Of a stretch of 64,000 nucleotides of DNA, positions 223 through 3,108 are shown in pieces; position 1 is the stretch's first letter, and each line of letters starts with the position of its first letter. The stretch is from Bosea sp. BIWAKO-01 (GTDB lineage Bacteria > Pseudomonadota > Alphaproteobacteria > Rhizobiales > Beijerinckiaceae), in the NCBI RefSeq assembly GCF_001748145.1, contig NZ_BCQA01000001.1:2816501-2880500 (forward strand). The letters are read 5' to 3'. The notes under the pieces are model-generated. The model did no database searches. It was not told where the DNA came from and saw only the letters and a list, made by a program, of their open reading frames with translations. Both the position numbers and the translations under genes were made by a program.

Positions 223-906
223 ATGACTGACAGCATCGCGACCGATCCGAGGCGCCGTGAGCTCGAAGAGCTGCTGCCTTTCTACGCCAATGACCGCATC
301 TCGGTTGCCGACAAGGCGCGCGTCGAGACGGCGCTGACGACTGATCCTGAACTCGCGGCACGGCTCGAGATCGTCCGTGAGGATATGGCGGAGACGATCC
401 TGCTCAACGAGAGCCTGGGCGCCCCTTCGCCGCGCGCACTCGACCGTCTGATGGCCGGCATCGAAACCGAACCGCAGCAGGCGCCGCTTCTGGCGCGGGC
501 CCGCGGAGGCTTCCTGAGCTGGCTCGGCCAATGGCTGGCGGCGCTGCCGCCGCGAAAGCTTGCCTATGCCAGCGCCGCGGCCCTGGCGTTGATCGCGATT
601 CAGGGCGTCGCGCTGACGGGCCTTGCTCTGCGCGGTGGCGGGGGTGGGTTCCGAACTGCGTCTGCGCCGGGAACATCATCCTCGGAGCGTTATGTCCTGC
701 TCAGCTTCGCACCGGATGCAAGGGCCGCTGATATCGCCGCTTTCTTCAAGCGCTACGAGGCGTCGGTGGTCGACGGTCCGCGCGCCAACGGCTTCTTCAA
801 GGTGCGCGTCGGCGACGCGAAGCTGACGCCGGCACAGGTCGACGCCATCGCGGCGCGGATGAAGGCCGAGGCTGCGATCATCAGCTTCGTCGCGCCGGCC
901 CCGTAG
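223..906 (+). CDS. Membrane-anchored anti-sigma factor, zinc-less, with propeptide-like outer domain
   Basis: Protein of 227 aa starting at ATG 223 behind GGGAG at 211-215; a GTG at 178 is possible but lacks a good ribosome site. Residues 12-80 form the anti-sigma helical domain with the usual ELLPFYANDRIS signature, but the His-x3-Cys-x2-Cys zinc ligands are missing. One membrane helix spans about 112-136, followed by a glycine-rich linker. The outer part (about 157-227) has the beta-alpha-beta look of an I9-type protease propeptide and resembles the prodomain of the next gene (see findings). It presumably holds the upstream ECF sigma factor at the inner membrane until released by proteolysis. 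The anti-sigma role rests on domain pattern and position. Confidence 0.85.
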   Translation: MTDSIATDPRRRELEELLPFYANDRISVADKARVETALTTDPELAARLEIVREDMAETILLNESLGAPSPRALDRLMAGIETEPQQAPLLARARGGFLSWLGQWLAALPPRKLAYASAAALALIAIQGVALTGLALRGGGGGFRTASAPGTSSSERYVLLSFAPDARAADIAAFFKRYEASVVDGPRANGFFKVRVGDAKLTPAQVDAIAARMKAEAAIISFVAPAP

Positions 907-928
907 CGGGCGCAACGGGGGCTTTGGG

Positions 929-2707
929 ATGCACACCTTGGGGCCGAAATGGGGAGTGGGTGCCGTGCTCCGTCAAACCAGCAACGAGCAGCGGCGACAT
1001 CTCGCGCCATTCGTTGGTTGTGTCGGGCTTGCCATGCTGATTGGCCTGCCGGTTTCAGCCCAGGAATTCGGTGGTCGTGGACAGGGATTGACTCCCGGCA
1101 TTCAAAGGCCGGCACCGAGTATCCAGAGGATCCCGGCGACGCGCCCGCCCGTGGGGCGTCCTGATGGGGTTCCGACCCGTCCGCCGCGCTATCCCGGACG
1201 CTATCCGGGCGGCGCTAGCTGGGGGCCTGCGGCCGTCGGTGTCGGAGCAGGCATCATCGGCGGGCTGATCCTGGATCAAGCGAGCCGCCGGCCGGTCATT
1301 ATCGAGGATTATGAGGATGAGCCGGTGTTGCGCAGGCCGCGGCGGCCGCCACCGGATCGGGAGGCGGCGCCGCCCCGGACGCATCGCGCCGCGCCTCCCG
1401 TCGCTCCGCCGCCGACCCGAACAGCCCGGCCGGCCCCGCGCCAGCCCAATGTGATCGTGCCGTCGGCCTCCGAGCGGAGATTGGTCAATGAGGAGATCCT
1501 GTTCGAGCTTGCGCCGAATGCGCAGGCCGAGGCGGTGCTGCGCCGTTATCGCGCGACGCAGATTGCCAGCCGGCGCTTCGGGCTGGCCGGCATGACCATC
1601 ATCCGTGCGCGCCTCGAGGGCGGCCGCAGCGCCAGGAGCGTGCTCGCCCAGATGGCGGGCGATCCGCGCGTCGCCAGTGCCCAGCCAAATTATCTCTATG
1701 CCTTGCAGCAGGACGAGCCGAAGGGCGGCGTCCAGCCGGCGGGCACGGATGTTGCGCCGGTACTGCCAGCAAGCAAGCCTGACGATGCCGAAAAACTGAT
1801 CGTCATCCCGGATCTTCCACCGATCCCGCCACTTGTCTCGATGGCGCCGAAGCGCGAGCTGCAACCGCAATATGTGGTCGAGAAGCTGCATCTCGACGAT
1901 CTGCACAAGATCGCGCGCGGTACGGCGATCCGCGTGGCCGTAATCGATTCCGGCGCCGATACGAGCCATCCGGAGCTGCAGGGTGTTCTTGCCGGCTCAT
2001 TCGATGCGCTCGGCGGGGAAGGTCAACCCGATGCGCATGGCACTGCGATGGCGGCGGCGATCCTCGCGCAGGCACAGTTGCAGGGTGTCGCTCCAGGCGC
2101 GCGGCTTCTTGCGGCGCGCGCCTTCTCGGGAGCGGCGGCGGCGGGGCCCGCCAATGGCACGACCTTCCATATCCTGGCGGCGCTCGACTGGGCGGCAGGC
2201 GAGGGCGCCCGTGTTCTCAATCTGAGCTTTGCCGGCCCGCAGGACCGGCTGCTCTCACGCTCGCTCGCAGGGGCCAAGACCAAGGGCATGGTCGCGGTCG
2301 CGGCCGCGGGCAATGGCGGAGCCAAGGCGGCGCCGCTCTATCCCGCTGCCGATCCGAATGTCATTGCCGTCACCGCGACCGATGCGGACGACAAGCCGTT
2401 CTCCGGGGCCAATCGCGGGGACTACATCGCTGTTGCCGCACCGGGAGTCGATGTCCTCGCGGCGGAGCCGCAAGGACGCTACGCCTTTTCGTCAGGCACC
2501 TCGATCGCAGCGGCCCATGTCTCGGGGCTCGTGGCGCTGCTGCTCGAGAAGCGTCCGGAACTCGGCCTTGACGATGTGCGCAGGCTCCTCAGCGAAAGCG
2601 CCGTCGATCTCGGCGGCAGGGGCAAGGATCCTGTCTTCGGAGCGGGCCGGGTCGATGGACAGGCGGCCCTGTCGCGCGTCCTGCCGGTGTCGACGGCTCG
2701 CCCCTGA
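929..2707 (+). CDS. Exported S8 (subtilisin-like) serine protease with prodomain
   Basis: Protein of 592 aa. Counting from ATG 929, a long signal peptide ends near PVSAQ (residue 45). A Pro/Arg-rich stretch follows, with a hydrophobic glycine-zipper-like segment at about 103-116 and an acidic Y-E-D-E motif. Next are an I9/fervidolysin-type prodomain (about 187-257) and the S8 catalytic domain (about 330-590). The triad is visible as D340 in AVIDSGAD, H370 in DAHGT and S525 in SSGTSIAAAHVSG, with oxyanion Asn462. All residues needed for activity are present. GTG 965 behind GGGGAG is a credible shorter start. It lies 22 bases after the anti-sigma gene, so it may be that protein's processing partner or a target of the sigma factor. 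Confidence 0.9.
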   Translation: MHTLGPKWGVGAVLRQTSNEQRRHLAPFVGCVGLAMLIGLPVSAQEFGGRGQGLTPGIQRPAPSIQRIPATRPPVGRPDGVPTRPPRYPGRYPGGASWGPAAVGVGAGIIGGLILDQASRRPVIIEDYEDEPVLRRPRRPPPDREAAPPRTHRAAPPVAPPPTRTARPAPRQPNVIVPSASERRLVNEEILFELAPNAQAEAVLRRYRATQIASRRFGLAGMTIIRARLEGGRSARSVLAQMAGDPRVASAQPNYLYALQQDEPKGGVQPAGTDVAPVLPASKPDDAEKLIVIPDLPPIPPLVSMAPKRELQPQYVVEKLHLDDLHKIARGTAIRVAVIDSGADTSHPELQGVLAGSFDALGGEGQPDAHGTAMAAAILAQAQLQGVAPGARLLAARAFSGAAAAGPANGTTFHILAALDWAAGEGARVLNLSFAGPQDRLLSRSLAGAKTKGMVAVAAAGNGGAKAAPLYPAADPNVIAVTATDADDKPFSGANRGDYIAVAAPGVDVLAAEPQGRYAFSSGTSIAAAHVSGLVALLLEKRPELGLDDVRRLLSESAVDLGGRGKDPVFGAGRVDGQAALSRVLPVSTARP

Positions 2708-2808: not shown

Positions 2809-3108
2809 ATGACCAATTTCAGGAAGAGCATGGCCACCACTCTCGCCGCGCTCACGCTCGGTACCGCGCTCCTCGCCAGCGCCAGTGGCGCCGAAGCCCG
2901 CCCGCGCTATCGCGGCCCGTATTGGGGTGTCGGTGCGGGCATCGTCGGAGCGCTGGCCGTCGGCGGATTGATCGCCGCCTCAACCGGCCGTGCCTATGCC
3001 GAGCCGGTCTATGAGGAGGATGCTCCCGTGCGCCGCTGCGAGCTGGTCGAGCGCATCAACCGTTTCGGCGACGTCGTCGGCCATCGCCGGGTCTGCAGCC
3101 TCTACTGA
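2809..3108 (+). CDS. Small exported protein with glycine-zipper segment
   Basis: A 99-aa protein. ATG 2809 is chosen over an upstream ATG at 2773 because CAGGAG lies at 2795-2800. It has a signal peptide (about 1-27), then RPRYRG and a hydrophobic glycine-rich stretch GVGAGIVGALAVGGLIAAS, an acidic YEEDAPVRR motif, and a C-terminal part with two cysteines (CELVERINR, RRVCSLY). The function is unknown; such small exported proteins are common in this order. The stretch from RYRG to APVRR resembles the linker region of the adjacent protease. It may be the last gene of the sigma/anti-sigma/protease locus, 101 bases downstream. Confidence 0.75.
   Translation: MTNFRKSMATTLAALTLGTALLASASGAEARPRYRGPYWGVGAGIVGALAVGGLIAASTGRAYAEPVYEEDAPVRRCELVERINRFGDVVGHRRVCSLY

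Follow-up and report, generated by a model that had tools for sequence, protein, structure and literature searches.

In a 64,000-nucleotide stretch of the genome of Bosea sp. BIWAKO-01 (contig NZ_BCQA01000001.1, positions 2,816,501 to 2,880,500; hereafter the window), the gene for an anti-sigma factor that adjoins an extracytoplasmic function (ECF) sigma factor gene is followed, after 22 bases, by the gene for a subtilisin-like serine protease of family S8. We find that the outer C-terminal domain (CTD) of this anti-sigma factor belongs to a family of domains related to the prodomains of S8 proteases, and that the CTD travels with an S8 protease gene in many Pseudomonadota. These observations are consistent with a three-gene envelope circuit, composed of the sigma factor, the membrane anti-sigma factor and a dedicated S8 protease, in which the protease would dock on the CTD and cut the anti-sigma linker, whereupon the sigma factor would be freed. 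We put the chances of this mechanism at about even.

The window genes considered here all lie on its plus strand. The anti-sigma factor (positions 223 to 906; 227 residues) consists of a cytoplasmic N-terminal domain, one membrane helix predicted from hydropathy at about residues 113-135 (559 to 627), and the 73-residue CTD (residues 155-227; 685 to 903). The protease (929 to 2707; 592 residues) starts with what appears by inspection to be a signal peptide and carries a prodomain of the fervidolysin type (residues 181-259; 1469 to 1705) ahead of its catalytic domain (residues 318-582; 1880 to 2674; PF00082, E 1.9e-39). An earlier, sequence-only reading of this DNA had placed the pair at 223 to 2707, and both its coordinates and the protein strings it quoted are correct. 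The catalytic triad that it described as intact is found at D340, H370 and S525, and hydropathy agrees with its view that a single membrane helix puts the CTD outside. Only NCBIfam anti-sigma models match the window anti-sigma factor, all below their cut-offs, and no Pfam family does; among 22 relatives, however, zf-HC2 is found in the N-terminal part of 20 at E up to 10, and L055 and L119 match it above its cut-off. Homologous sigma genes adjoin the anti-sigma gene in related loci. Judged by its sequence, the window protein has what marks a membrane-class ECF anti-sigma factor, namely the N-terminal domain, the single helix and the adjoining ECF sigma gene.

The relationship between the CTD and the prodomain emerges from families of sequences rather than from the window pair. 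When the window CTD and window prodomain are compared directly, BLASTP aligns nothing even with the E limit raised to 100, and a shuffled Smith-Waterman comparison of the two segments yields z 2.8 (p 0.015, 2000 shuffles). For CTD/prodomain pairs from the same genome the median z is 0.7, and z reaches 3 in 7 of 43. The similarity between the two window sequences alone is thus close to chance. We assembled a family set from 20 further loci of the family and 80 loci from public genomes, with the CTD and prodomain sets each reduced to under about 80% identity. An hhalign comparison of the CTD profile (60 sequences) with the prodomain profile (52 sequences) gives a probability of 94% and E 1.4e-7 over 63 columns, end to end, and a rerun by a separate tool with 59 CTDs and 52 prodomains gives 93.7% and E 2e-7. 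The true score of 40.2 compares with a maximum of 16.8 in 300 column shuffles and with 9.9 for the reversed CTD, and the probability is 94.8% when the CTDs and prodomains are drawn from disjoint loci. Rotated profiles, which keep most of the local order, still reach 48-78% among the six rotations listed, as a genuine local match would lead one to expect. Two further families that share this fold class, drawn from the relatives' genomes, fare less well: SPOR (29 sequences) reaches 60% over only 28 columns, and ACT (27 sequences) 0.65%.

Searches with single profiles point in part the same way. When the prodomain profile is run over all 5858 open frames of these loci, 22 anti-sigma factors come out above the first other non-protease, at modest E values (best 0.0006); in the reverse search over the same frames, no more than 5 proteases score below E 10 with the CTD profile. 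With the limit set at E 1, the Pfam family of the fervidolysin prodomain, PF22148, is found in 44 of 52 prodomains and in 17 of 59 CTDs, the best CTD having E 3.7e-6. Among ten homologues viewed singly, L109 is the sole one whose CTD exceeds the curated cut-off of this family (27.0 versus 21 bits, residues 169-226). The window CTD has no Pfam match, and the window prodomain falls just under the same cut-off, with 18.0 and 19.7 bits. At the level of the family, then, the resemblance is real and amounts, by profile comparison, to shared ancestry with S8 prodomains. The sequence-only reading had proposed that the CTD resembles the prodomain of the neighboring protease; this is confirmed by the family profiles, whose similarity is significant, while the window pair taken alone is near chance.

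Structure prediction gives both domains the same arrangement, beta-alpha-beta-beta-alpha-beta, so that the predicted folds do not differ, in keeping with the sequence-only reading. The CTD model has a pLDDT of 84.9, with strands at residues 8-13, 31-35, 42-47 and 71-77 and helices at 19-28 and 54-65, and the prodomain model has a pLDDT of 94.5. The closest solved structure to the CTD is the prodomain of PCSK1, and the stand-alone inhibitor POIA1 is also structurally alike, as is the PF22148 prodomain, which resembles the CTD in sequence profile as well. Foldseek against the PDB gives no match below E 0.001, and its top matches are mixed. No SPOR chain is among the structural-alignment matches listed, an absence that carries no evidential weight. 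Unlike POIA1 and the PF22148 prodomain, the CTD belongs to an anti-sigma factor, of which it forms the outer part, and it appears to have no C-terminal tail, since in the model the chain runs on for at most a few residues after the last strand. Subtilisin propeptides reach into the active site with such a tail. Its apparent lack counts against a simple decoy inhibitor, and for this reason it seems, from the model, likelier that the protease docks and then cuts the linker than that it is plainly inhibited. We also note that the CTD is a relative of the S8 prodomain and not an S8 prodomain itself, because it ends a separate protein instead of preceding an S8 catalytic domain, and because the protease has a prodomain of its own.

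This prodomain of the protease is a regular feature of the family, being present in 80 of 80 aligned copies, which means that the CTD duplicates the domain and does not replace it. Among 40 proteases from the wider class and phylum searches described below, the prodomain is detected at E 0.001 in 28; two more are cut by the end of the locus, and ten fall below that score. These ten distant proteases are the neighbors of L115, L116, L118, L119, L218 and L220 and of four further loci, and several of them carry an extra stretch ahead. Inspection by eye shows a comparable stretch in at least some of the ten, and hence we claim no case in which the CTD stands in for a missing protease prodomain.

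Gene order across genomes, a check that the sequence-only reading had suggested, bears out the pairing. In 100 anti-sigma loci of the family, a set that includes apparent same-genome repeats (for example L008/L058, L014/L084, L012/L074 and L015/L082; L199 also repeats L013), 77 have an S8 gene further downstream in the same orientation, 6 have it elsewhere in the locus, and 17 show none in the examined flank. Contig ends cut four of these 17, which fall outside the genome search; in the other 13, a search of the genome places the protease gene divergent and close to the sigma gene in five and elsewhere in three (two of which adjoin another anti-sigma factor of the same family), and finds none at E 1e-15 in five. 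Searching with the CTD only, we obtained 17 matches in 385 genomes of the class, including the window, and an S8 gene lies within 1.5 kb in 15 of the 16 others (15 of 17 if L123 is counted, which by inspection is an amidotransferase and was taken as a chance match). The same search over 398 genomes of the phylum gave 35 matches including the window, and an S8 gene adjoins 25 of 27 further loci, a count that leaves out six matches without loci (five weak ones and one repeat copy). Among the phylum loci from other classes, an S8 gene stands beside L205, L217 and L220, and none stands beside L219 and L221. L219 encodes a protein of 387 residues in the called open frame (586-1722), which has a membrane helix and a terminal CTD, and its examined flank holds neither an S8 nor a sigma gene.

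The best control is a search that used just the N-terminal domain as its query. It yielded 29 loci beyond the window, while two further match places had no locus. Fourteen of these loci carry the CTD, and an S8 gene stands beside all 14 (the weakest at E 1e-4, cut by the flank). By contrast, none of the 12 ECF-linked loci without a CTD has an S8 neighbor (best E 0.04). Excluded from the latter number are L296, L298 and L299, which have no CTD, no ECF sigma neighbor and no S8 gene; if the same criterion is applied on both sides, L284, a CTD locus with no sigma gene in its flank, also drops out and leaves 13 of 13. Fisher's test for 14/14 versus 0/12 gives p 1e-7, which overstates independence because loci within the groups are related. 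The pairing noticed in the window by the sequence-only reading is therefore a recurrent one, and the CTD and an S8 protease gene occur together in many Pseudomonadota.

A third feature lies in the linker between the helix and the CTD. The linker sequence is variable, yet 53 of 80 non-redundant linkers contain the motif [FYLIVM]xTA[ST] at a distance of 5-14 residues from the hydrophobic window, whereas 500 shuffles produce a mean of 0.9 and at most 5. A looser form is found in 68 of 80 linkers, versus 14.8 in shuffles. The window anti-sigma factor carries the motif as FRTAS at residues 143-147 (649 to 663), next to the membrane, and it is a candidate site for a first, or site-1, cut. Subtilisins prefer an aromatic or aliphatic residue at P4, a preference with which the motif agrees, as such a residue stands four positions ahead of a small one. 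Small-residue sites also suit other enzymes.

Promoter-like elements may tie the protease and other genes to the sigma factor. A first pattern of the GGAAC/GGAAT type had no match in 18 upstream regions. The element [TC]GAACC-N16-CGAC, which we read by eye from those 18 regions, precedes the sigma gene at 67 of 98 loci of the family, compared with 0.2 expected from block shuffles and 8 on the opposite strand, and at 20 of 36 class and phylum loci; most of the loci that led us to the element are among those counted. Where the protease gene is placed separately, it has its own element 85 to about 460 bases ahead in five of eight assessable genomes (L089, L224, L225, L228 and L229, the last being the genome of L058); in L228 the protease and sigma genes are on different contigs.

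The genome to which the window belongs holds 36 exact matches to the TGAACC form of the element, versus 8 with a reversed-pattern control. We scored 30 of the 36 with a matrix built from 48 sites upstream of relatives' sigma genes; the other six each lie inside some open frame of at least 120 residues, which has little meaning in a GC-rich genome. Three of the scored matches stand apart at 29-35, with the next at 14.7, and they precede the sigma operon and two genes for small secreted proteins (C1:2816058, 2819228 and 3886807). The best score of all 30 belongs to the element TGAACC-N16-CGAC at positions 2728 to 2753 of the window, just beyond the protease gene. It precedes a gene for a secreted, glycine-zipper-like protein of 99 residues (2809 to 3108 from the ATG at 2809; the open frame is called from 2773), which is likely a target of the sigma factor. 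A glycine-rich segment of the protease (residues 86-135; 1184 to 1333) resembles this small protein, with 42% over 50 columns and E 3e-6 in a two-sequence comparison with no low-complexity filter. The last of the three elements (C1:3886807-3886832, in the region C1:3884500-3889000 of the same genome, L266) lies far from the sigma operon, ahead of a gene for a 101-residue small secreted protein rich in glycine, histidine and tryptophan.

Another genome, G009, encodes a secreted protein rich in glycine and histidine whose only such domain, at its end, is the CTD (L134:8127-8870, listed together with L025; E 3e-20). The called open frame is preceded, at a distance of 8 bases, by the sigma-type element (L134:8879-8904), and no family S8 gene is found in the surrounding 18 kb. 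This protein seems to be rare, given that it has only two close relatives, P0121 and P0122. It suggests a soluble decoy or feedback inhibitor.

From these features we infer the following order of events. Mature protease would bind the CTD at the surface that it uses for its own propeptide. The first strand of such a fold starts, and its last strand ends, at the same edge, and so, by this topology, the linker would leave the domain close to the cleft of the active site, where the docked protease could cut it at [FYLIVM]xTA[ST]. With the outer domain removed, the site-2 protease of the genome would cut the remaining stub and the sigma factor would be free. Free sigma factor would then raise expression of its own operon, including the protease gene, together with that of a few small secreted proteins. 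The starting signal may, for example, be the freeing of the protease from its prodomain. The genome has a single site-2 protease and only three S8 genes.

Several observations weigh against docking and cutting. Beyond the sigma/anti-sigma background, distances of the CTD and the catalytic domain are not correlated (partial r 0.09); the value of 0.21 for CTD and prodomain is matched by 0.24 for N-terminal domain and prodomain, and N-terminal and catalytic domains give 0.18. Five genomes (L068, L069, L070, L090 and L104) keep the sigma and anti-sigma genes, CTD included, with no family S8 gene at E 1e-15, and three of the five retain the strict linker motif. Even the loose motif is missing from 12 of 80 linkers, mostly those of distant homologues. 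Separately placed S8 genes lack the promoter element in the remaining three of the eight assessable genomes (L135, L223, which is the genome of L074, and L226, which is that of L084). The argument from a domain shared by anti-sigma factor and protease does not extend to the ten of 40 class and phylum proteases whose prodomain falls below E 0.001. Finally, an ECF sigma factor can be paired with an S8 protease with no CTD at all, as in Sinorhizobium meliloti, where the anti-sigma factor EcfR6 is encoded beside a related S8 protease and has no such domain.

Some of these facts fit other explanations. The sequence-only reading had offered both release of the sigma factor by the protease and silencing of the protease by the anti-sigma factor, and its interpretation is supported in part. 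The anti-sigma factor might silence the protease, the CTD being a membrane-anchored inhibitor of the propeptide type or a folding helper that acts in trans; stress would then free the protease as an effector, and release of the sigma factor would be parallel or reverse. The kinship of the CTD with prodomains and its structural likeness to POIA1 speak for such a role, and a secreted protein such as that of G009, behind a sigma-type element, is what one would expect of a soluble feedback inhibitor. However, every aligned family protease already has a prodomain, the modelled CTD comes to its end with the last strand, apparently leaving no tail for the active site, and silencing leaves the conserved linker motif unexplained. 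We regard silencing as rather unlikely, although it may alternate with docking and cutting. Less likely again is that the CTD gauges the amount of protease or of free propeptide as a form of feedback, with the protease being mainly an output of the regulon and a general enzyme, of the DegS or signal-peptidase type, making the first cut. The position of the protease gene downstream of the sigma genes in 77 of 100 loci, or behind its own element in five of eight genomes, suits an output; the linker motif resembles the small-residue sites of other enzymes; and the five genomes that keep the anti-sigma factor without this protease, three with the strict motif, would be accommodated. What feedback sensing does not explain, unless binding occurs, is the tight link of the CTD to S8 genes.

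Two explanations remain. One takes the CTD to be a SPOR-like or other ferredoxin-like sensor, of peptidoglycan for example, which would share with prodomains only a common fold. Weak matches to SPOR (PF05036) do occur in 19 of 59 CTDs, none better than E 0.0018, its partial hhalign match has been given above, the fold is a common one, and no Foldseek match reaches E 0.001. The prodomain relation is nevertheless the stronger and spans the whole domain. Of the ten homologues that were viewed one by one, a single member exceeds the prodomain cut-off and none that of SPOR (15.8 versus 21 bits in the one member where it is listed), and a SPOR-like sensor leaves the S8 neighbor unexplained. We find this improbable. 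The other, which we consider the most improbable of all, is that the genes adjoin merely because the sigma factor controls the protease, and that the similarity of the domains has no present function. ECF sigma genes are indeed known beside serine protease genes where there is no CTD (PMC6180224), yet the presence of the CTD predicts the protease neighbor, in 14 of 14 loci versus 0 of 12.

As regards the rest of the locus, the 3' end of the ECF sigma gene occupies positions 1 to 177 and its larger part precedes the window, with the complete open frame of 206 residues at L004:4557-5177. Comparison with relatives makes the start at MHTESDEDL probable. The named relatives are mostly from Bosea, within which the gene pair is patchy: the anti-sigma factor is found in none of three other genomes of the genus (G011, G052 and G084), yet in many public Bosea records.

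Membrane anti-sigma factors that are removed by a site-1 and then a site-2 protease are familiar from RseA-DegS-RseP, which governs sigma E of Escherichia coli, and from RsiV and RsiP. The site-1 enzymes of those systems are DegS or signal peptidase and not S8 proteases, and we know of no prodomain-like outer domain among anti-sigma factors of these types. That ECF genes can lie beside serine protease genes is already known: according to PMC6180224, the S. meliloti gene for RpoE6, of group ECF26, is divergent from the serine protease gene SMa0142, which is induced by RpoE6 overexpression, this divergent order is conserved in ECF26, the promoter is GGAATA/GT, and the activation mechanism is called hypothetical. 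In the pSymA locus (L106), whose genes we assigned by profile because its record carries no annotation, the S8 protease is related to the family protease (E 2e-79). The RpoE6-EcfR6-SMa0142 system is like the present one in having an ECF sigma factor, a membrane anti-sigma factor and an S8 protease side by side, and unlike it in lacking the CTD, in its promoter (GGAATA/GT versus TGAACC/CGAC) and in its protease gene, which is divergent rather than downstream in the same direction. We rejected the RpoE6-EcfR6 pair as a member of the family, as the outer part of EcfR6 scores 0.5% and 0.3% in hhalign against the CTD and prodomain profiles, and, in a comparison by promoter only, the conserved element of the present system differs from the ECF26 promoter (-35 GGAATA, -10 GT). 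An open-licence literature search by titles and abstract openings gave nothing that joins anti-sigma factors with subtilase prodomains, a word search of PMC7406223, which deals with class I anti-sigma factors, was likewise negative, and the literature found proposes no mechanism for the present CTD/S8 family.

A parallel in mechanism may be found among eukaryotes, whose protease S1P is a subtilase. According to PMC11231238, two successive cuts release a regulator in the SREBP2 system; S1P makes the first of them, and its partner SPRING displaces the inhibitory pro-domain. The present system differs from S1P/SPRING/SREBP2, which is eukaryotic and under sterol control. No homology of the partner SPRING is known.

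If the circuit operates as proposed, then a receptor domain and its protease can be named, together with a promoter element and a candidate site of cutting, for a family that spans several classes of the phylum, and a propeptide would have been reused in trans as a regulatory docking domain. More tentatively, and with somewhat less than an even chance in our estimation, we suggest that the family represents a widespread and, judging by the literature searched, undescribed type of signaling, in which an anti-sigma factor captured a copy of a subtilase propeptide. One docking surface would serve both the maturation of the protease and its use as a dedicated site-1 enzyme, competition between prodomain, CTD and, in one genome or more, a secreted copy behind the same promoter element would set the switch, and the system as a whole would be a bacterial counterpart of S1P and SREBP.

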